From the IMG/VR virus record IMGVR_UViG_3300031669_000180, positions 1 to 28,933 of that record: DNA of 28,933 nt. The stretch is one strand, 5' to 3'. Origin of the DNA: a virus. Under the pieces are notes generated by a model. The model was not told the DNA's origin. It worked only from the letters and a program-made list of their open reading frames with translations, and searched no databases. Position numbers and translations under genes: made by a program. This document shows positions 1,648 to 26,173 of the stretch, piece after piece. The number at the start of each line of letters is the position of its first letter. Position 1 is the first letter of the stretch.

Positions 1648-3714
1648 TCAGGAAGGAGGACGAACATACGACCAGTAAGTTATTGATCCTTTTCTCACTT
1701 TTTTGTGTTCCCACCTCAAGCGATTCATGACTTTCCCCAGTTTTGTTTCGTCAGCTTTGGTGATTTGGCCCAGATCCTTGCGCATCAGTTTAGTCAGGAT
1801 TTCGTATCCCTGTATAGTGTTTCCGGTCCACTCCTCCAAAAATTCCGAGACAGGCCCATCCCAGAGGTCGTGCTGCATTCGTAACTCTTGCTGTTCCTGA
1901 GCGCCGGGGACCAGCCACCAGTCCAACCATTCGTTTTTGCGCACCCGGTAAACGGCTTCGGCAAAGAGTTGATCCCGTGCTAATTGCAGTCGTGGAATAT
2001 CAATCTTGTCTGGGCCTACGCAGACGGGCAGGAAACGCCGTCCGCCGGTTTGATCCGCTATCCAGTCCGCCCCATTGGTGCCGCCTACAAAAATGCTTTG
2101 CCGGGGCTTGCGCTCGTTGTCCCTGGCGTACTTTGCCCGGTAATCGTCATTTCTGAGCGTGATGACCTGCTTTATCCGGGTCACTTCCGCGCGCTGGAAC
2201 TGGTCCAGCTCTCCGAGATCGACAAACCATTTGCCGCGCATGGCGATAAAAAAGTCAACACTTTCGATGGATGCTGTCTGGTCCAGATACCAATCTCCGC
2301 CCAGCACCTCCCAGAGTGATGACTTGCCGGAACCTTGGGGAGATTCGAGCACCGTCATCGTATCCATTTTGCAGCCTGGGTAAATGATTCTGCGCACTGC
2401 TCCAATAAAAAGCGACCTCGAAACCCCTCTCAAATATTCGGACTGCTCAGTCCCAAGGTGGTCAGGGAAAAATTGGTCAATCCGTTCTACGCCATCCCAT
2501 TGAGTCGAATTCAGATAATCAAGAACAGGGTGGAATGAGATCTTTTTTGCAGCGGCGCGAGCTGCGCGCTCCACATCTCCGGGCGCCACCTTATCAGATA
2601 TCCATTTGCTTTCCATGGTGGCGACCAAGTTGGTGACTCCATCATCATCCAGCGGCTTTCCGTCCATGGATGGGATTTCGGCAAAAATATCAAAGGCCAG
2701 ACGACCTGCAAATTCTTCGCCGTGCGTAAGAATTTCGCGATAGTTGAAGACGCGGGGAAGAATCTTGCCCGTCTGCCCGTCATCCAAGGTTTTTGTGATG
2801 AGTGTGGCGATAAGCTCTTGTCGAGATAAATTCGGCTCCAAATCCGGGAAGGGCGCATCCCAAAAATCTTTCCCTTCCGGCGCCTCGATAATCCGCGATT
2901 TGCCACTCAGCCCCGCGACGGCCTTGGCGCTGTAGGTGCGCCCCGCCGGATCCCCGTCGACGGCAATGATGATCTCCGCCGTGGGGTATTTCGTGCGCAT
3001 GATGCGTGCGATAGACGGGAGATTGCTGGCGGAAAAGGTGACGGCGACGGGGCATTTGGAGTGCGGCAGGATGGCCTGCGCCGTAGCGATACCCTCGGCA
3101 ATAACCACCCGGTCTTTGATCTCTCCGCCCAGAACGTGAAACGCTCCCTGCGTCGTGGATTCTTTCATGAACAACTTCTTGTCCAGACCGTTGGCGATGA
3201 TTTGCAGATTAACGATCTTACCTTCCGCATTTTGCATGGGGACGATCAAACCGGTGATATGCCAAGGCTTTTCTGTCTTGAATCCAAATGCAGATGCGTC
3301 CATCAGAGAGATAAATTTACATCCGTCTGGAGTCGCCATCTTTTTGCGGGTGAGATAGTCCGAATGGCCTTCAGTGTTCGCCTGGGCATATATACGTTGA
3401 GCCCGCAGAGCTGTGGCGGAGCGGAGAGCGATAGCTTCCTTTTTTGCTGCATCCCGTTGGGCATCCATGGCGGCAAGGTCAGCGGGGGTGAATGTGCGCC
3501 CTGCTTTCTCGGCCCATGTGTGCTTGGTCTGGTCGCGCATGGACCCAAATCCCGCCGCTTTGCCGTTGGCGTCGTCGTGTGCCACATACCACCCGTCTTT
3601 CGAGTGCGGCTTGTCTGGCGATGTGGGCCAGCGGTGAATCTTGCCGTCCCAGATTATGGTGCGAGGTGGCGTGAAACCGAGTGATGCGATGGCGTCAATG
3701 AGTAAGGCCATCAT
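1648..3714 (-). CDS. TOPRIM primase fused to VapE-type helicase (688 aa)
   Basis: A replication primase-helicase. The N-terminal half carries a TOPRIM domain: VVIAEGIA with Glu207, and IIIAVDGDPAG with Asp253 and Asp255, the metal-binding acids. The C-terminal half is the virulence-associated E (VapE/D5-like) P-loop ATPase: Walker A in ESPQGSGKSS (Lys464), then VDLGELDQF as a Walker B-like segment and a TNGADWIADQTGGRRF sensor region, typical of the family. There is no N-terminal zinc ribbon, which many phage primases have. I use the ATG at 3714, which overlaps the helicase stop (ATGA) and has AAGGG upstream; a TTG six codons earlier is also open. It lies directly beside the iteron-like cluster and probably acts there. 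Confidence 0.9.
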   Translation of the reverse strand: MMALLIDAIASLGFTPPRTIIWDGKIHRWPTSPDKPHSKDGWYVAHDDANGKAAGFGSMRDQTKHTWAEKAGRTFTPADLAAMDAQRDAAKKEAIALRSATALRAQRIYAQANTEGHSDYLTRKKMATPDGCKFISLMDASAFGFKTEKPWHITGLIVPMQNAEGKIVNLQIIANGLDKKLFMKESTTQGAFHVLGGEIKDRVVIAEGIATAQAILPHSKCPVAVTFSASNLPSIARIMRTKYPTAEIIIAVDGDPAGRTYSAKAVAGLSGKSRIIEAPEGKDFWDAPFPDLEPNLSRQELIATLITKTLDDGQTGKILPRVFNYREILTHGEEFAGRLAFDIFAEIPSMDGKPLDDDGVTNLVATMESKWISDKVAPGDVERAARAAAKKISFHPVLDYLNSTQWDGVERIDQFFPDHLGTEQSEYLRGVSRSLFIGAVRRIIYPGCKMDTMTVLESPQGSGKSSLWEVLGGDWYLDQTASIESVDFFIAMRGKWFVDLGELDQFQRAEVTRIKQVITLRNDDYRAKYARDNERKPRQSIFVGGTNGADWIADQTGGRRFLPVCVGPDKIDIPRLQLARDQLFAEAVYRVRKNEWLDWWLVPGAQEQQELRMQHDLWDGPVSEFLEEWTGNTIQGYEILTKLMRKDLGQITKADETKLGKVMNRLRWEHKKVRKGSITYWSYVRPPS

Positions 3715-5291
3715 GCCATCCCTTTCCACCAAGCCCCGGTATGGCGTGGAAGTGCTGCATTAAGCTCATCTTTTTCGTATTTTGCGCTCAAGTCATGCCA
3801 TACCTTGCCGCGCTTCCATCCCTTTTCCTGCGCAGTTCTCATAAGTCGCTTGTAATCATTTTTGATCTGCACGGTGAGGGGGACGGTAGAAGGATCATAT
3901 TCTACCATTGAGCCATCAGCGGCAAGAGGAAGGCTTGCGTCGGTAGCGGAGGGTAACGCGTGCGCGCGGTTATCGCTGTAGAGCGACCCGCATTCCGGAC
4001 AGACGATGGTGCGCACTTCAAAAAGCCCCTCGATTTGCTGTCGTTCCAGGGTCGGCCTGAACAGCGCCGCGCAATGTGGGCAGTCAGCAGTGCCGCAGCC
4101 TGGGCACACCAGAAGCCGTTTAGACGGGTCCGCATCCATGAAAAAAGGCGCGTCGACTGTAAATATCATTTGGCATTCATGGCAGTGAGCGAGTTCCGGC
4201 ACAAGATTCATCTTTTTCCGCTCCCGCTCGCCCTGCAAGCTCCATTCCCGGTGAATAGATGGCGCGCCATGCAGCTCTACACACCCGGCGTGATCCAGCA
4301 CCAGCGCCCGACTTTTGGATGCCGCCGTGCGCATCACACGCCCCACAATTTGCAGGTACAGTCCGATGGACTTGGTGGGCCTCGCCAATATGCACACCTC
4401 AAGCTCAGGGAAATCAAACCCCTCAGTAAATACCATGCAATTCGACACCACTTTGATGGCCCCGCGTCGCCAGTCCGCAATAATGGCCTCGCGCTCGGCT
4501 ATGGGCGTTGACCCGTCTACGCTGGCAGCCGGAATACCCGCTTGCCAGAACGCCTGCGCGATATGTTTCGAGTGCTCGACGCCCGAAGCAAAAATAGCCG
4601 TGGGTGCGCCGTTCGCGTGGCGCTTCCACTCGGTGAGGATGTCGCCGATGAGCGTGGGCTTATCCATCGCCTTTTCGAGTGCGCCTTCTGCGTAGTCACC
4701 CCCCCGCGTGGGAACGGCGCTCAGGTCCGCAGTTGCGCGCCCTACATAGCAGGTGGGCGCCATCAGGAATCCCTGCTCTATCAGTTCCGGGATGGTGGAA
4801 ACTGTCACCATCATTTCAAAGAGGTCATCCAGTCCTTTGCCGTCCTGCCGCTCCGGGGTGGCACTCAGGCCCAGAATCACGGCGCCCGGGTAGTTGGCGA
4901 CAATATCCCGGTAGGTTTTCGCCGCAGCCCGGTGGGCCTCATCAATGATAACGATCTTTGCGGGGGGAGGCTCGCGCCGGATGAGCGTCTGAACGCTGGC
5001 GACCTGGACCAGAGCCGAGGCGTTATTCCGTTTCGCGCCGGCCATGATAATCCCGTATTCCGAGATCCCCGCTTCCCGGATTTTCGCCGCGCTTTGTTCA
5101 ATGAGCTCTCGGCGATGCGCAAGAAAGAGGGTGGGAGAACCCTTTTCATAGGCTCCCTGTAGGATTCGCGCGGCCAGCACAGTTTTGCCTGCGCCGGTGG
5201 GTGCGTTAATCAGTATGCTGCGTTTGCTGTCTCTAATAAGTGCGCGGGTTCGCGCGATGGCGTCGTCTTGATACGGCCTGAGAATAAGCAT
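3711..5291 (-). CDS. SF2 DEAH-type DNA helicase with C-terminal zinc ribbons (526 aa)
   Basis: A superfamily 2 helicase of the type common in phage replication modules. Visible motifs: Q-like LRPYQ at 4-8, Walker A APTGAGKT at 30-37, DEAH at 117-120, motif III GLSATP, and motif VI QIVGRVMR with arginine fingers. After the two RecA-like domains the tail has four CxxC knuckles (CHEC, CPGC, CPHC, CPEC), suggesting two zinc ribbons for DNA contact. The ATG at 5291 is preceded by AAAGGA with a five-base gap, better than a TTG at 5345 in the same frame. It leads into the primase by ATGA overlap and probably unwinds DNA for it. It is likely co-transcribed with the upstream regulator. Confidence 0.9.
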   Translation of the reverse strand: MLILRPYQDDAIARTRALIRDSKRSILINAPTGAGKTVLAARILQGAYEKGSPTLFLAHRRELIEQSAAKIREAGISEYGIIMAGAKRNNASALVQVASVQTLIRREPPPAKIVIIDEAHRAAAKTYRDIVANYPGAVILGLSATPERQDGKGLDDLFEMMVTVSTIPELIEQGFLMAPTCYVGRATADLSAVPTRGGDYAEGALEKAMDKPTLIGDILTEWKRHANGAPTAIFASGVEHSKHIAQAFWQAGIPAASVDGSTPIAEREAIIADWRRGAIKVVSNCMVFTEGFDFPELEVCILARPTKSIGLYLQIVGRVMRTAASKSRALVLDHAGCVELHGAPSIHREWSLQGERERKKMNLVPELAHCHECQMIFTVDAPFFMDADPSKRLLVCPGCGTADCPHCAALFRPTLERQQIEGLFEVRTIVCPECGSLYSDNRAHALPSATDASLPLAADGSMVEYDPSTVPLTVQIKNDYKRLMRTAQEKGWKRGKVWHDLSAKYEKDELNAALPRHTGAWWKGMA

Positions 5292-5388
5292 GTCTGTCCT
5301 TTTGTCGAAAGGTTGTCGTTGATGGATTGCGGCGACCGATGACAAGTCGGGGTTCGGGGGCGCACCCTAGCCGCAATGGTAGTGTAAT

Positions 5389-9286: not shown

Positions 9287-9459
9287 AAATCACGGTAATG
9301 ATCCAGTATTACGGCCATGTAATCCATGCGGCCGGTAGCATAACATATCGAGCTGTATCCCTGACTCTGACAGATGAGCAAGCCGCAGCGCTTGAGCTTA
9401 ACGACGATGAAGCTTATGGGGCGACAGCCATCGGGAAAGACGATGAGGAGGCCGCATGA
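9283..9459 (+). CDS. Small hypothetical protein (58 aa), easily missed
   Basis: ATG at 9283 overlaps the previous stop (ATGA), GGAGG lies about eight bases upstream, and the stop at 9457-9459 overlaps the start of the exonuclease gene (ATGA). It fills the gap exactly with two-way coupling, so it is very probably real despite its size. The product begins MKITVMIQYYGHVIH, with a beta-like N-terminus and an acidic Ala-rich tail (KDDEEAA). Function unknown. Confidence 0.7.
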   Translation: MKITVMIQYYGHVIHAAGSITYRAVSLTLTDEQAAALELNDDEAYGATAIGKDDEEAA

Positions 9460-10145
9460 GCGCCGTTTACCACCATCACATTTGCCAAGGCACAGACGAA
9501 TGGCTTCAGCTCCGCACAGGCCTCATCACTGCCAGCGAAATGAAGCTGTTACTAACCCCAACCCTAAAGGCAGCTAACAACGACAAGAGCCGCGCGCACC
9601 TGTACGAACTGGCAGCCCAGCGCATCAGCAACTACACGGAGCCATCGTTCATCAGCGAAGACATGATGCGCGGATGGTCCGATGAGGTCCTTGCGCGGCA
9701 GGCCTATGCGGAGAATTACGCGCCCGTAGAAGAATGCGGATTCATCACGCGTCGAGTCGAAGGGTGCACGCTGGGTTATTCGCCCGACGCACTGGTCGGT
9801 GAGGACGGGTTGATCGAATGCAAATCACGCCGCCAGAAGTATCAAATCAGGACGATTTGCGACGCCATTGTCCCTGAAGAATACATGCTGCAAATCCAGA
9901 CCGGCTTACTCGTTACCGGGCGCAACTGGCTCGATTTTGTAAGCTACTGCGGGGGCCTGCCAATGGTAGTCCTGCGCGTGTACCCAGACCAAAAAATGCA
10001 GGGAGCGATTATTGAGACTATCCAGCGGGCGGAAGATGAAGTCAGCGCGTTGATCCACTCTTACGACAGCACACTGGCCAAGCATCCAACGTGGCCGACC
10101 ACAGAACGCATTATTGAAAAGGAGATGCCATCATGGGCAAATTAG
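9456..10145 (+). CDS. YqaJ/lambda-Exo-like recombination exonuclease (229 aa)
   Basis: A PD-(D/E)xK exonuclease of the YqaJ viral recombinase family, which resects double-stranded DNA ends to leave 3' single strands. Visible: the N-terminal GTDEWLQLRTGLITASE (12-28), in which such enzymes place R and S/T-A-S-x-x motifs; SPDALVGEDGLIECKSR with Asp111 and the Glu121-x-Lys123 pair; and YMLQIQTGLLVTGR (about 143-156), the helix carrying the conserved Gln. Length is normal. It starts by ATGA overlap with the 58-residue gene and ends overlapping the next gene by 13 bases, so it is translated with its probable partner. Confidence 0.9.
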   Translation: MSAVYHHHICQGTDEWLQLRTGLITASEMKLLLTPTLKAANNDKSRAHLYELAAQRISNYTEPSFISEDMMRGWSDEVLARQAYAENYAPVEECGFITRRVEGCTLGYSPDALVGEDGLIECKSRRQKYQIRTICDAIVPEEYMLQIQTGLLVTGRNWLDFVSYCGGLPMVVLRVYPDQKMQGAIIETIQRAEDEVSALIHSYDSTLAKHPTWPTTERIIEKEMPSWAN

Positions 10146-13518: not shown

Positions 13519-13934
13519 GCGAAGAACTCAAGCCGTGCCCTCGGTGCAAGTCTGTGGATGTAGCCAGTGTGGGATGTCTTCTGGGTTGGTGGGTAGAATG
13601 CAACAACTGCGCCGCAGAAGGTCCCTATTCAAGCACCAAGGAAGGCGCAGAAGCCGCATGGGCCGCCGCGACAACGAAGGAGAAATCAATGATTAGCGAC
13701 GAAGACATTAAGTATTTTGCGTCCGTACACGCTGGGGGCCCAATCGGAGAAATAGCCACCGAGCTCCTCCAACTCCGCGAAGAAAAGCGCACCCCATGCC
13801 GCTGGGAACAGGACATGGACGGAAACTGGCAGACGGGGTGCGACAATATGTTTGTGCTGAATGATGGAGCGCTAGCGGAAAATCGTATGAATTTCTGCAC
13901 TTATTGCGGGCACCAGATTGAGGAAATGCCATGA
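13515..13934 (+). CDS. Lar-like zinc ribbon fused to a second Cys-rich phage module (139 aa)
   Basis: The first 52 residues match the Lar restriction-alleviation family: LKPCPRC (Cys8, Cys11), WWVECNNCAAEGP (Cys29, Cys32), then the typical EGAEAAWAAA helix. Lar of the Rac prophage reduces type I restriction of incoming DNA. Residues 59-139 are a separate module with Cys95, Cys109, Cys128 and Cys131 (CRWEQDMDGNWQTGC, then FCTYCGHQIEE), seen elsewhere in phage proteins. Met59 (13689) has its own AAGGAG with a six-base gap, so the second half may also be made alone, or the two were once separate genes. Confidence 0.8.
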   Translation: MSEELKPCPRCKSVDVASVGCLLGWWVECNNCAAEGPYSSTKEGAEAAWAAATTKEKSMISDEDIKYFASVHAGGPIGEIATELLQLREEKRTPCRWEQDMDGNWQTGCDNMFVLNDGALAENRMNFCTYCGHQIEEMP

Positions 13935-14212
13935 CCAACACCGACAAACTGCCAGAAGAACAGAAAGTATTCACCTGCGGATTTTGCGGGAAGACACATA
14001 AAGAGGTGCAGGTGATGATAGTTGGCCCGACACCCGATATAACAATATGCAACGAGTGCGTGCGCCTCTGTTTAGGCGTGCTATTTGACGAGGCTGAAGG
14101 AAAGACAACCCGAGGAGAGCGCCAAAATGACCAACACCGAAAAGCTGAAAACCCTCCGAGAGCATCAAGCATGGCGCATGCGTGGCGATGGTGCTCCTCC
14201 GCTGGTCGCTGA
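13931..14212 (+). CDS. Small protein with ClpX-type C4 zinc finger (93 aa)
   Basis: Residues about 13-54 (FTCGFCGKTHKEVQVMIVGP, then ITICNECVRLCLGVLFDE) closely follow the N-terminal zinc-binding domain of the ClpX unfoldase: Cys16, Cys19, Cys40, Cys43, the EV..LI.GP turn and the CxECVxLC signature. The AAA+ part is absent. In ClpX this domain dimerises and receives adaptors and some substrates, including phage proteins, so a stand-alone copy could be a decoy or adaptor; that is inference. Residues 66-93 run through the start of the next gene in another frame, giving an 86-base overlap and a low-quality tail. The start is coupled by ATGA. Confidence 0.8.
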   Translation: MTNTDKLPEEQKVFTCGFCGKTHKEVQVMIVGPTPDITICNECVRLCLGVLFDEAEGKTTRGERQNDQHRKAENPPRASSMAHAWRWCSSAGR

Positions 14213-14345
14213 CATTACGGCGGCGATTGACTACGCCATCCAGTGCTGCGAGTCCGTCCAAATGCTCGAAGAATGGATTGATTGCGGTGATATTGATCCT
14301 GACAAGATGATCAGTAGGGTTCGCGCTCTGATGGAGTCGAAATGA
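14127..14345 (+). CDS. Small hypothetical protein (72 aa)
   Basis: ATG at 14127 with GAGGAG upstream. It opens MTNTEKLKTLREHQAWR, almost the same first residues as the preceding gene, because the bases ATGACCAACACCGA occur at both starts. The body is helical (ADITAAIDYAIQCCESVQML...) and acidic. Cytoplasmic, no motif recognised. The stop overlaps the cytosine methyltransferase start (ATGA). Confidence 0.7.
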   Translation: MTNTEKLKTLREHQAWRMRGDGAPPLVADITAAIDYAIQCCESVQMLEEWIDCGDIDPDKMISRVRALMESK

Positions 14346-15184
14346 ACACCATGCACCTGTTCGCTGGAGCCGGTGGAGGCTTACTCGCCGACCTGATCTT
14401 GGGCCATACACCCATCGTTGCCGTGGAGTGGGACAAACATGCTTGCAGAGTGCTTAGAGATAGGGCCGCAGACGGATGGTTCCCCGGTCTGCATGTGTAC
14501 GAGGGAGACGTTCGGATGTTCGATCCATCCGACTACGCGGGACGAGTGGATTGCATCGCAGCGGGGTTCCCTTGCCAGGATATTAGCGCGGCAGGAAAAG
14601 GTGAAGGCATTACAGGCAGCCGAAGCGGCCTTGTCTCTGAAGTGTTCCGATCAGTTGACGCTGTTCAACCACGATTCGTTTTCCTCGAAAACAGCCCGCG
14701 AATCCGAACAAAAGGGCGCGACTTTGTTATCGGGGAACTGGTGGCGCGTGGATACGCCTGGCGCGATGGAATCCTTGGAGCGGCTGATGTTGGGGCGCCA
14801 CATCAACGCGACCGGTGGTTCTGTATTGCTGCCAACGCTGACAGTATGCGGCAACTACAATCGCAAGGGAGCCAGCAAAACGAGCGGGGACGGGCTTATC
14901 ACGCGACTGAAGATGATGCCCACCCTCTGCGCGAGAGACGCCCGCACCGTAGCGGGCTCGCAGCCCCCAAGGCGAGCGCCAACGTCCGGCTTACCGCTGA
15001 CGTGGTCGCTTGGCAAAGACCTGGAGCCGCTGGCGCGTCGTGGTTTGAGGCTGAACCCGATGTGGGCCGCCTGGTATATGGGATGGCCGATGACATGGTT
15101 CCGGGTGCGGTGAAAGCCCTGGGCAACGGCCAAGTTCCACTACAAGCCGCGACCGCATGGATGCTGCTGGGAGGGCCAGTATGA
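14342..15184 (+). CDS. DNA (cytosine-5) methyltransferase (280 aa)
   Basis: C5-cytosine methyltransferase using S-adenosylmethionine. Motif I LFAGAGGG (6-13), motif IV GFPCQDIS with catalytic Cys78, motif VI as FLENSP (115-119; usually ENV), motif VIII as QRDR (155-158; usually QRRR), and motif X GNGQVP (261-266). The target-recognition part is only about 90 residues, so the enzyme is short. No matching restriction enzyme is nearby, so it probably protects phage DNA from host restriction. Coupled on both sides by ATGA. A second long frame overlaps almost the whole gene, and the C-terminal third (EAEPDVGRLVYGM) is read in both frames. Confidence 0.92.
   Translation: MNTMHLFAGAGGGLLADLILGHTPIVAVEWDKHACRVLRDRAADGWFPGLHVYEGDVRMFDPSDYAGRVDCIAAGFPCQDISAAGKGEGITGSRSGLVSEVFRSVDAVQPRFVFLENSPRIRTKGRDFVIGELVARGYAWRDGILGAADVGAPHQRDRWFCIAANADSMRQLQSQGSQQNERGRAYHATEDDAHPLRERRPHRSGLAAPKASANVRLTADVVAWQRPGAAGASWFEAEPDVGRLVYGMADDMVPGAVKALGNGQVPLQAATAWMLLGGPV
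14439..15113 (+). CDS. Overprinted frame inside the cytosine methyltransferase gene (224 aa)
   Basis: This frame, +1 to the methyltransferase, runs 224 codons from an ATG with GGAG ten bases upstream. Its product does not look random: DEWIASQRGSLARIL, CSDQLTLFNHDSFSSKTA, LPTLTVCGNYNRKGASKTS, LPLTWSLGKDL and LNPMWAAWYMGWPMTW. I recall such motifs, especially the GNYNRKGAS and LNPxWxxWxMGWP blocks, from proteins or frames next to phage cytosine methyltransferases. The end lies over EPDVGRLVYGM in the other frame. It may be a true second gene, or the C-terminal part reached by frameshifting. Whether it is translated is unknown. Confidence 0.5.
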   Translation: MLAECLEIGPQTDGSPVCMCTRETFGCSIHPTTRDEWIASQRGSLARILARQEKVKALQAAEAALSLKCSDQLTLFNHDSFSSKTARESEQKGATLLSGNWWRVDTPGAMESLERLMLGRHINATGGSVLLPTLTVCGNYNRKGASKTSGDGLITRLKMMPTLCARDARTVAGSQPPRRAPTSGLPLTWSLGKDLEPLARRGLRLNPMWAAWYMGWPMTWFRVR

Positions 15185-15403: not shown

Positions 15404-16033
15404 ATGGAAAAAATAACGATAGGAAATTGCACCCTGTACAACGCCGACTGCCGGGATGTGCTGCCGGAACTGGGTCGGTTTGATCTGCTTTTGACTGATC
15501 CGCCGTATGGGCTCGCCGAAAAATTACAGGGCGGCACATGGGGCAAATCTTACGATGGAGATTATCAAGACTGGGATTACCAACCCCCAGACTTTTTGCC
15601 GACCATTACTGCCATTTGTAACAGATCAATCATTTGGGGCGGAAACTATTTTACGCTGCCCTCGTCAAGGGCGTGGCTAGTATGGAGCAAGCCGGAGCGC
15701 GGCTTAACAATGGCAGACGGTGAGCTTGCTTGGTGCAGTTGGGACGGGAACCTGCGCATAAAGGAGCTTTCTCGCAATCCAAACAATGAAAAACGGGATC
15801 ACCCTACACAAAAGCCATCGCGGTTAATGCAGTGGTGCATCCACCAAGCCGACAAGCAATCCCATAACGCCGCCATCTTCGACCCATTCATGGGATCGGG
15901 TAGCACGGCTATGGCTTGCATCCTAGAGGGCCGAACATTTACCGGCATCGAGCGCGAACCCAGATACTTCGACGCGGCCTGCGAACGCATAGAGCGAGCC
16001 ACGGCACAGGGGAGGCTCTTTACCGACGCATAG
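15404..16033 (+). CDS. Beta-class DNA N4/N6 amino-methyltransferase (209 aa)
   Basis: S-adenosylmethionine-dependent methyltransferase acting on adenine N6 or cytosine N4. Motif order is beta class: catalytic DPPY (32-35) first, then HPTQKP (133-138) and the cofactor loop FDPFMGSGSTA (159-169) at the C-terminus. Length is at the short end, with a brief recognition region. Start ATG has AGGAT upstream. It is the last gene of the rightward operon and the second orphan methyltransferase after the cytosine enzyme. Its 3' end overlaps the convergent zinc-finger gene by 14 bases. Confidence 0.92.
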   Translation: MEKITIGNCTLYNADCRDVLPELGRFDLLLTDPPYGLAEKLQGGTWGKSYDGDYQDWDYQPPDFLPTITAICNRSIIWGGNYFTLPSSRAWLVWSKPERGLTMADGELAWCSWDGNLRIKELSRNPNNEKRDHPTQKPSRLMQWCIHQADKQSHNAAIFDPFMGSGSTAMACILEGRTFTGIEREPRYFDAACERIERATAQGRLFTDA

Positions 16034-22381: not shown

Positions 22382-25300
22382 TTATAAGAGTCCTAGTGAG
22401 CTACCGCCAACTGCTTCAACGGTCAGCGTGGGAGTAGTACCGATGTCTGTGAAGGTGAAAATGTAGTCCTCCCAGTTGCCTTGACCAACAGCCGGATTGG
22501 GCAGAATCGTCCCAACGGTAACACCTGTGCCTCCTGCCAGCGTTCCAGCATACCCTGTGGTGCTCTGGTCGTTGTTGATGAAGCGCCACTTGAAAGCCGT
22601 ACCCACCACGGCGTTAGGCATTGCAGCAAGAATATTCGCAGCCGTATCGGTCGTGACGGTGAACGCTGCCGTTTGGGTGGCTCCATCCGCAAAGTACTGA
22701 CCTGCGAGTTGGGATGCCGTTGCGGTGATGGTGCCAGCAGTCGTTGTTGAGGAAACCGTGAGCGCGTTGGTTGGCTCGATGATCCCAAAGGCGTTCCAAG
22801 TTGGTGTAGCACCACCAGAAGTGCAAACATAACCAATTGGGCCACCTGGAACGGGGTTCAGTTCGTAAACTTTAGCGCCTAAGGACCAATTTGCCGTTGT
22901 CGGGTGGCCGGATGAATACTCCTTAACTGGCATCTCCCCGCACGATGTAAATTCCAACTTGACGGCGACCGCACTATCTGTAGGGCCAAATGCAGTCGCC
23001 CCGTTTATAAACCTGTTGGATTCGATCATCAGTCCATAATTTGTGGACAGTGAAATTATACCTCTCTTCATTGGCGTTATGGTGGTGTAAATAGGTCTTG
23101 AGGTGACAAGTGTGCCTATTGGAGCTCCCCCCGATGGCAAGCCCCCTATGGGTGTCTTCAAGGGGATTGTAACAGGAGCCGCCCCTCCAAATGTCCCAGA
23201 AGCTAGCACCCCAACGCCACCGATAAGGAGTAGAAGATCTCCTACGAGGTACGCATACGGAACAGCGCCGCCTCCAGATAAGCTAACCTCAATAGAGGTA
23301 TCCCCATTATTTGCCGCTGTGGTTAGTTCGAGAGTATGCAGTCCATATGGAGTATTTATAAAAAACTCTCCATAATCAGTCTCCCCACTTGCTATGTCAA
23401 GAACAGAGATTCTTAGTGTGCCAGTCAATGCGACGGGCTGATTGATATTGTCAATCGTTAAGGCGCTACAGTAAGCAAAGTTAACGGCATCATAGGTTGG
23501 CAAGATAATATCTTTAGTTGTTGATAAAATCTTATTCAGATCATCCTGAACTAGACATGCACCAGCCCTAAAATCAGTAGAAGCCGCAAACGAATACTCA
23601 CTTGTACCGAATCCCGAAGTTGCAGTCAGGAGTGGCTCGCTCTCTAAATCCACGCCCTTCAGCTTATACACCCCAGACATGAGCCCAACATTGTACGGTA
23701 GAGGGACGCCGTTTAACGTATTGGCTATATTTCCATTCCCAATATAGGTATTTATATATGAGCTATTCCCGTCATCTGCTACTGAGGTTGTTCCATTGGA
23801 TCTGCTCCCGGAGTCTTTTCCTGTATAGTTTATAAGAGGAGTATATGGAAACCCTTCGGTCGTCGTGTAATTTACTGAAAGACCGTTAACAGAGCCTATA
23901 ATAAAATGCGACACTAAAGTTGACTTTACTGGTTCATTCTCAATGCCATAGTAATCAATAACTATATTTACATTGGTATTAAACATCCCACAGCCAGTGT
24001 CCCCACCGTAACTAAGATATAGGTTTTTTGCCATTAAATCGACGCCTGGGGTCGTTCTGCCAGCAACGAAAAACATGAACCCACTAGGACGACATTCCAA
24101 TGAGGAGCTTGGATAAGTATAATCTATTATGGTCGTCCCGGTTCCCGGATTTCCTGGGGCGTTGCTCACTGTTGGTCTAAGGATGCTATTTTGAAACCAT
24201 GTATCAAAAGCAGCATTAGTATGGCCCGCGCCAAATGAGGTACTATTGCCTTCATAAATTATACTCTGAATAAAAAATGTATAGGCCCCATGTCCAGCAT
24301 AAGGGCTGCCAACTGGAGCTGCGGTTGATCCCGCTATTAATAGTGGCCCTGTAAGTGAACCGGCACCTATTACTGACCTAAATACTGGAATTTGACAGTT
24401 TAGATACCAGAATGTAAAACAATTACAGTTGATGTAATAGCAGCCCTCAAATGTTGGGGTGCTAGGAGTATTTATAATACCAAATACAAACGAGAAGTTT
24501 TCGAAAGAGATGCCCTTTATCTTTGGAGAATACACCGCAGACACCCAGTAAAAAGCTGATCCTGACATTGGTCCGGGATAGTTGGCTGTAGGATAACTAA
24601 GATCGTCCGGGATTGTCGTATTAAAGTACGTACTGCCGACAATTGCTGTAGTATTATAATCTCCGTCCCAGTCCACTACCACTCCTCTTACAAAAACCGG
24701 ACCTGACGCCGGATTCAGGAGATAGTGTCCAGGGGAAAACCAGAGAGGCAACGCGGAATCGGCAGCCCTCTGGAGTGGTCTTACGTTATCCGATGTACCA
24801 TTCCCGATGCACCCAAACCACTTAATATCTGCTCTACCTGAATATTGGCGTACCCATGCTACGGAACCGTTACCCCCATTCGGGACAATAATGGTTCCCC
24901 CATTATCCACATAGCCGCCAGATGCCTCCGCGAGAAAGGTTCCTTCCCCGCCATCCAAAAAGGTATTGTAACCCGTCATGAACACACTATTCCCCGCTAC
25001 AGCCTCAAGGTTGCGAAGATCATTCATGAAAAAATCTACATCATCCGAGATTGGTGGCAACAAGCCTAATACATATTGGATAGCAGAGCTTGTCGCTGCG
25101 GTCGGTGGCAATACCCCTGGTAAGGTTTCACCCGTATAAGTATAAGTGCCCCCCGTGATCCCGCTTGCCACAAGTCCGAGTGGCGAATAAGCAGATGTCG
25201 GAGCGGCGGCCCCTGGAGCGACGGCACCTGTGTAGGTGTAGGTTGTGCCGGTTACGCCACTGGCTACCAGTCCAAGCGTCGTGCTTCCGGCTGTCGTAGC

Positions 25301-26173
25301 GTAAATATCCATTGCCGTTTCATTGGCAGGATTCGCCCATGTGAATACCATTGTCCCATCAAGGGCGACAACCACGGAAACTGAAGGGCTCACGGCCCCG
25401 TAGCTTGTTGCATTATGGGCAACCAAAGCCCCTAAGTAGGTTCCGGCAGCCAGAGTGCCACCGCTGGCCCCCGCCGTAATTGCAGGGGTCGGAGAAGTGA
25501 TGGGAGCTGTGGCATAGACATCAACGGACTCAAGCGGTGCTTCCACATCCCAGTACAGAGTCGCCGCCCCGGATGCCGGAAGTGCAAGGCTTAGGGCAGT
25601 CCCTGGTAGCCCATGCCCGCTTGCATCATTTGGCACGATGGCAAATTCGTAGGTGTTAACTCCGAGCGTGCCCGTATTGGTGGCCTTGTATCGCAATGCC
25701 GGCGCGGTGATAGCATTAGTTATCACCTTCAACAGGTTGATGGCATTCGCCGGAGCAGCGGGAGCGGCAGCACCATTGGCTACGGAGGTGTATGCAACTT
25801 GCCCCGTGTTGGTCATCGAGAAATATGTATCCGATGAAGCCGGATAAGTGTCAGCAACCGCCGCCTGCAATAGCGTCCTCTGCCCCAGCACGTAAGCCGT
25901 GCCCGCCGGGATCGTCATGGTCAGGGAGGCGGGGGATGGCACCGTAGGATTTATCCCAGAGACGATACAATCCTGCACGGCATCGGCAGCTTGCAGGAAC
26001 GGGCCTTGGTTGGATTCGCCCGCACCTGGAGATTGATTGATCGTGCCGTCAAACGTCTGCGGGAACGGCCATGTATTCGGCTGCTGCGCGAGCAAATTCG
26101 CCGAGGCGGATAATGCCGTGTTCAGCTCGGCTGCGGTTAATACAGTTCCAGCGGTAAATACAGGTATAGTCAT
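22382..26173 (-). CDS. Tailspike/tail fibre with beta-helix centre (1263 aa)
   Basis: The receptor-binding candidate. Residues 1-130 are an attachment-type domain (MTIPVFTAGTVLTAAELN..., AYVLGQR). About 200-370 hold an Ala/Thr-rich beta section with a repeated segment (LGLVASGVTGTTYTYTG and LGLVASGITGGTYTYTG). At about 447 comes RADIKWFGCIGNGTSDN, the usual entry to a pectate-lyase-like beta-helix (compare DxxxFGAxGDGxxDDT), which runs to about 1090. A C-terminal domain from about 1150 is shared with the short fibre. The central helix bases (about 22900-24960) are richer in A and T than the flanks, suggesting exchange. It probably binds or cuts surface polysaccharide; no catalytic residues can be named. 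Confidence 0.85.
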   Translation of the reverse strand: MTIPVFTAGTVLTAAELNTALSASANLLAQQPNTWPFPQTFDGTINQSPGAGESNQGPFLQAADAVQDCIVSGINPTVPSPASLTMTIPAGTAYVLGQRTLLQAAVADTYPASSDTYFSMTNTGQVAYTSVANGAAAPAAPANAINLLKVITNAITAPALRYKATNTGTLGVNTYEFAIVPNDASGHGLPGTALSLALPASGAATLYWDVEAPLESVDVYATAPITSPTPAITAGASGGTLAAGTYLGALVAHNATSYGAVSPSVSVVVALDGTMVFTWANPANETAMDIYATTAGSTTLGLVASGVTGTTYTYTGAVAPGAAAPTSAYSPLGLVASGITGGTYTYTGETLPGVLPPTAATSSAIQYVLGLLPPISDDVDFFMNDLRNLEAVAGNSVFMTGYNTFLDGGEGTFLAEASGGYVDNGGTIIVPNGGNGSVAWVRQYSGRADIKWFGCIGNGTSDNVRPLQRAADSALPLWFSPGHYLLNPASGPVFVRGVVVDWDGDYNTTAIVGSTYFNTTIPDDLSYPTANYPGPMSGSAFYWVSAVYSPKIKGISFENFSFVFGIINTPSTPTFEGCYYINCNCFTFWYLNCQIPVFRSVIGAGSLTGPLLIAGSTAAPVGSPYAGHGAYTFFIQSIIYEGNSTSFGAGHTNAAFDTWFQNSILRPTVSNAPGNPGTGTTIIDYTYPSSSLECRPSGFMFFVAGRTTPGVDLMAKNLYLSYGGDTGCGMFNTNVNIVIDYYGIENEPVKSTLVSHFIIGSVNGLSVNYTTTEGFPYTPLINYTGKDSGSRSNGTTSVADDGNSSYINTYIGNGNIANTLNGVPLPYNVGLMSGVYKLKGVDLESEPLLTATSGFGTSEYSFAASTDFRAGACLVQDDLNKILSTTKDIILPTYDAVNFAYCSALTIDNINQPVALTGTLRISVLDIASGETDYGEFFINTPYGLHTLELTTAANNGDTSIEVSLSGGGAVPYAYLVGDLLLLIGGVGVLASGTFGGAAPVTIPLKTPIGGLPSGGAPIGTLVTSRPIYTTITPMKRGIISLSTNYGLMIESNRFINGATAFGPTDSAVAVKLEFTSCGEMPVKEYSSGHPTTANWSLGAKVYELNPVPGGPIGYVCTSGGATPTWNAFGIIEPTNALTVSSTTTAGTITATASQLAGQYFADGATQTAAFTVTTDTAANILAAMPNAVVGTAFKWRFINNDQSTTGYAGTLAGGTGVTVGTILPNPAVGQGNWEDYIFTFTDIGTTPTLTVEAVGGSSLGLL

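Follow-up and report, generated by a model that had tools for sequence, protein, structure and literature searches.

A conserved +1 reading frame nested in a phage C5-cytosine methyltransferase gene is predicted to encode its recognition subunit

Introduction

The window analyzed here is a stretch of 28,933 nucleotides from a viral record (IMGVR_UViG_3300031669_000180), in which a cytosine methyltransferase gene is covered by a long second open frame in the +1 phase. The locus raises the question of whether this second frame is a gene in its own right, and what its product would contribute. The initial annotation had suggested old overprinting kept by selection in both frames, or a programmed frameshift giving a hybrid product, and had regarded a second role such as a modification accessory, decoy, or recognition subunit as new. 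In DNA phages, long genes nested on the same strand and backed by strong evolutionary evidence are uncommon.

Results

The methyltransferase frame lacks motif IX

The methyltransferase frame, termed alpha, contained the following features:

14342–15184, + strand: alpha, catalytic polypeptide of a C5-cytosine DNA methyltransferase, 280 aa (PF00145, phrog_363)
14564–14587, + strand: alpha motif IV, GFPCQDIS, with the catalytic Cys
14846–15124, + strand: alpha aa 169–261, predicted to be disordered, at the position of the small domain (AlphaFold, pLDDT about 32)
15119–15139, + strand: alpha motif X, LGNGQVP (G261, G263, and V265 invariant in the alignment)

Alpha aa 1–181 matched the Pfam profile PF00145 (E 4e-33), and alpha also matched the PHROG profiles phrog_363 (3e-51) and phrog_116. 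The motifs reported in the initial annotation were confirmed, namely I (HLFAGAGGG), IV, VI (ENS), VIII (HQRDRW), and X, including the PC of motif IV, the EN of motif VI, and a QxRxR-like motif VIII that characterize C5-cytosine DNA methyltransferases. Motif IX was looked for in the alpha sequence and none was found. In the AlphaFold prediction (44 relatives), aa 1–160 reached a pLDDT of about 95, and folding was also good for the motif X helix. The model resembled M.HaeIII and M.HhaI in a Foldseek search over about 171 columns, and the sequence alignment of alpha with M.HhaI ended at motif VIII. Monomeric C5 enzymes carry a small DNA-binding domain (TRD and motif IX) between motifs VIII and X. 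A monomeric C5 methyltransferase was therefore rejected as a description of alpha, given the low pLDDT of aa 169–261 and the absence of motif IX.

Alpha is directly followed by a gene for an N4/N6-type DNA methyltransferase (15404–16033, + strand; PF01555 1.5e-19, phrog_67), and thus the phage has two different DNA methylases in succession. The gene just 5' of alpha (13931–14212, + strand) encodes a small protein that carries a C4 zinc finger of the ClpX type (PF06689 1.6e-12). A Toprim/VapE-like primase-helicase, a DEAD/ResIII helicase, and a YqaJ recombinase (1651–5345, − strand; 9456–10145, + strand) form a replication-recombination region, and an ORF of 1263 aa (22385–26173, − strand) had no match in a Pfam search.

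The nested +1 frame

The second frame, termed beta, and the signals around its start are as follows:

14343–14345, + strand: TGA stop of the +1 frame beside the start of alpha, at alpha codon 1 (sequence)
14425–14428, + strand: GGAG, possible Shine-Dalgarno sequence, 10 nt ahead of the beta ATG at 14439 (sequence)
14439–15113, + strand: beta, +1-frame ORF of 224 aa nested in alpha; predicted subunit with TRD and motif IX
14829–14897, + strand: conserved beta module LPTLTVCGNYNRKGASKTSGDGL, above the alpha linker (conserved alignment columns, reduced synonymous change)
15051–15098, + strand: beta motif IX-like element LNPMWAAWYMGWPMTW, overlapping alpha EPDVGRLVYGM (synonymous ratio, PSSM)

The +1 frame is open from a TTG at 14418 to the stop at 15111–15113, and the 224 codons from the ATG behind GGAG had been described exactly. 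The same bases do give EPDVGRLVYGM (15053–15085) in one frame and LNPMWAAWYMGWP (15051–15089) in the other. Both strings had seemed familiar from phage proteins and both recur, the +1 string in PHROGs 1008, 26627, and 27243 and the methyltransferase string in PHROGs 363 and 116. Beta of the window matched PHROG 1008 at 4e-6, as did 51 of 53 relatives (best 9e-37). Searches of Pfam, NCBIfam, PADLOC, and PDB sequences with beta yielded zero matches. The +1 protein of the window likewise retrieved nothing from phage records by tblastn; a better-conserved relative recovered 243 records. AlphaFold modeled beta alone poorly (pLDDT 50, pTM 0.21), and a fold search with this low-quality model gave no match.

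The best-conserved elements of beta were a GNYNRKG module, PTPTA-type modules, and the terminal LNPxWVEWLMGWPxGW. Four relatives (L060, L063, L064, and L065) contained additional tandem WPTPT-type modules in beta, and their varying number suggests gain and loss of modules that were kept in both frames.

Both frames are under selection

Synonymous codons were permuted within the alpha gene, with 500 shuffles for each gene. A +1 ORF as long as the observed one arose in 4 of 500 shuffles of the window gene alone, and in 0–2 of 500 for most of the 43 other relatives (range 0 to 61). The mean number of +1 stops was 1.2 in the observed genes vs. 5.1 in the shuffled ones. A search with the +1 protein retrieved 80 viral loci, every one of which overlapped a methyltransferase homologue in the other frame. 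The first locus set had been chosen through +1 peptides (mostly VCGNYNRK), which biases conservation at that peptide; therefore, a second set was chosen by methyltransferase alignment alone. In this alpha-picked set, all 75 full-length genes (window included) had a beta HMM match in the +1 frame, and a median of 285 of 287 codons was open in +1 vs. 50 in +2.

Among the most divergent pairs (alpha identity below 42%), synonymous codon identity was about as expected at alpha aa 46–90 and 151–165, near 1.0–1.3 times the expectation over most of alpha outside the segments that face conserved beta, and elevated 1.7-fold at aa 121–135, 1.9-fold at aa 181–195, and 2.2-fold at aa 241–255. In the next identity class, ratios of 2.0 and 2.8 were obtained in the two bins approaching and covering the WxxWxMGWP motif. 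The ratio at alpha aa 241–255, opposite the motif IX-like element, was 2.2–2.8. Furthermore, beta-frame similarity between the window and its four nearest relatives (L001–L004) lay 7–9 z units above the codon-randomized expectation, and the controls in the same pairwise test (the +2 frame and monomeric methyltransferases) gave z-scores of 0.6–4.1. Only the near-relative scores were counted because the control baseline reaches about 4. Distant relatives had pairwise z-scores of about 4–5, barely above a control of 3.9, so that the case for them depends on stop codons and on local constraint at synonymous sites.

L021, L043, and L076 show frame swaps that look like single-base indels and were left out of the analysis. 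They lie in the variable region, where they join the N-terminal part of alpha to the C-terminal part of beta or vice versa, and may be assembly errors or true frame exchange.

Both frames are conserved protein-coding sequence, and their overlap is genuine, of long standing, and maintained by selection. The proposal of overprinting selected in both frames is thus strongly supported by the codon shuffles, the alpha-picked set, the synonymous constraint, and the z-scores. Synonymous change was reduced where beta is conserved, the beta core had no stops in close relatives, and +1 homologues beyond a nested overlap were found as partial-overlap cases in the phages Catdawg, Samora, and Pharaoh.

Start of beta in the window and its relatives

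The beta start codon was located exactly 4 nt past the alpha start in 60 of 74 alpha-picked relatives, typically as NTGAATG, and 46 of these 60 paired starts were preceded by a Shine-Dalgarno-like run. Both chains could therefore initiate at neighboring codons. In the window, beta cannot begin beside the alpha start because the TGA at alpha codon 1 and a second +1 TGA at 14394–14396 (alpha codon 18) close the frame; the relative L083 has both TGAs. The GGAG/ATG arrangement at alpha codon 33 is common to the window and L083 and absent from most relatives. Judged from these signals, the ATG at 14439 behind GGAG, within the gene, is the most likely start of beta in the window.

Motif IX and the split relatives

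A PSSM of the terminal beta motif picked motif IX of M.HhaI, LHPRECARVMGYPDSY, with p < 0.001. The PSSM placed motif IX first in the Weissella and Hujiaoplasma methyltransferases, without significance against shuffles, placed it second in Dcm, and missed it in the Lenus enzyme. The mycobacteriophages Catdawg and Pharaoh and the Streptomyces phage Samora provide the context. Their frame-0 ORF stops just past motif VIII, and their +1 ORFs (Catdawg gp5, Samora gp35, and Pharaoh gp78; phrog_1008 at 1e-33 to 1e-80) contain a motif IX-like element directly followed by motif X. These +1 ORFs aligned with positions 414–498 of the methyltransferase profile phrog_116 (2e-8 to 2e-5), and alpha matched positions 208–378 of the same profile. 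A Pfam search of these three AquI-type beta chains gave no score, whereas PHROG 116 did score. The terminal element of beta resembles motif IX, with stronger support from this context than from the PSSM, whose support is modest.

Distribution and prior annotation

PHROG 1008 records are nested in or overlap a C5 methyltransferase, and are labeled as methyltransferase or hypothetical; no mention of a motif IX subunit role was found in these annotations. In Escherichia phage K1ind2, ORF28 ("putative Mte8-like protein"; PHROG 1008 1e-64) lies inside ORF29. In Paenibacillus phage, DevRi_57 (PHROG 1008 6e-72) lies inside DevRi_56 and is recorded as "not called by any program." For Pseudomonas phage PP083311, beta alone was annotated (CDS0044). 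Overlapping relatives also occurred on plasmids of Leptospira, Bacteroides, Enterobacter, and Paenibacillus. The beta sequence of a metagenome-assembled genome named "Candidatus Nanosynbacter" (L108) was identical to that of the viral contig L001, and this copy is probably a binned phage contig.

A literature search with sparse coverage of subscription papers and with preprints excluded found no earlier description of overprinting in phage methyltransferases. The two-chain kind is already known from bacterial precedents, and its distribution in phages, which is unexpectedly wide, appears to be little recognized.

Discussion

The locus most likely encodes a two-polypeptide C5-cytosine methyltransferase with its recognition part overprinted in the +1 frame. 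Alpha supplies the SAM-binding and catalytic domain (motifs I–VIII) and the motif X helix, linked by a segment without a predicted fold, and beta, which ends in a motif IX-like element, would act in trans by contributing the region for target recognition together with motif IX. Beta is expected to bind alpha, and the pair would then methylate phage DNA, probably for evasion of host restriction. Such a pair may have originated from a monomeric enzyme through opposite frameshifts, one after motif VIII and one before motif X, which would have put the TRD/IX segment into the +1 frame while motif X remained in frame 0. The N-terminus of beta would have been overprinted onto motifs IV–VIII in a later step. 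Among the roles initially suggested for the second product, a recognition subunit or modification accessory is probably right but not new, as M.AquI, M.EcoHK31I, and annotated phage ORFs precede it.

A programmed +1 frameshift after motif VIII would instead yield a fusion of the N-terminal part of alpha with the C-terminal part of beta (I–VIII, TRD, and IX) beside full-length alpha. Catdawg, Samora, and Pharaoh, in which alpha ends past motif VIII and the remainder lies in +1, could be connected by such a shift. However, the beta start of its own in 60 of 74 relatives argues against this, as does the openness of beta across the whole of alpha, which a late shift would not need; we consider the fusion unlikely. 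The frameshift idea failed for a −1 shift, which is excluded because it enters the +2 frame with about 14 stops; a +1 shift is possible, and neither a shift site nor any other sign of one emerged from the comparisons made here. A role for beta as an independent accessory, such as a decoy or an anti-restriction or regulatory protein, in place of a methyltransferase subunit is also quite improbable. In L083 (3001–4056) and L045 (2952–3818), the alpha frame has an internal stop and beta is fully open, as such a role would allow; these loci may be in a beta-only state, but decay or errors in sequencing may equally account for the stops. Moreover, beta was always accompanied by alpha in the loci examined, alpha is predicted to have no folded small domain, and motifs IX and X adjoin in some members of the beta family.

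We find an untranslated +1 frame, as a by-product of codon bias in a GC-rich gene, scarcely credible. A GC content of about 0.6 does reduce the number of stops, and for a few relatives an ORF of the observed length recurs in as many as 61 of 500 shuffles. Nevertheless, the beta HMM match and open +1 frame occurred in 75 of 75 genes, synonymous constraint was localized to the beta motifs, the +1 frame was also open in relatives with a GC content of 0.50–0.53, and beta belongs to an established PHROG and extends beyond alpha in some phages.

A further, tentative suggestion is that an entire clade of phage methyltransferases moved its DNA-recognition domain to an overlapping frame, with the variable WPTPT-type modules as a swappable specificity determinant that is exchanged while open in both frames; we hold this to be possible rather than probable. 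Gene callers overlook one of the two frames, and most records list alpha alone. Should beta prove to be the recognition half, many of the phage C5 methyltransferases that have been annotated and cloned as single genes would have no activity in the absence of the hidden ORF, and it is the +1 frame from which their specificity would need to be read. The locus also represents a clean, testable system for two frames evolving under joint constraint.

Comparison with known systems

In M.EcoHK31I, the small-chain gene lies inside the large-chain gene in another frame. Both M.AquI and M.EcoHK31I are two-polypeptide C5 methyltransferases (PMC3404938). M.EcoHK31I (YGGCCR) has motifs I–VIII and X on the large chain and only motif IX on the small chain (PMC3404938), and the window, likened to it by this described layout, shows the same distribution, with I–VIII and X in alpha and IX in beta. 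The two differ in the TRD, which is reported in the large chain of M.EcoHK31I, whereas the TRD region of alpha is predicted to be disordered and is covered by beta. Motif IX and a portion of the TRD reside on the small chain of M.AquI (CYCGRG), as predicted for beta, and the M.AquI split (I–VIII/TRD-IX-X) is that of the Catdawg, Samora, and Pharaoh relatives. The window departs from the M.AquI type, in which the small chain holds part of the TRD, IX, and X, in that alpha holds motif X and the whole of beta is nested. In phage methylases, HNH genes lying out of frame have been described with the ShiLan domain (PMC11855218). These are likewise second genes in another frame of a methylase, but they are inserted homing endonucleases; unlike that insertion, the overlap in the window spans the enzyme's own motifs.
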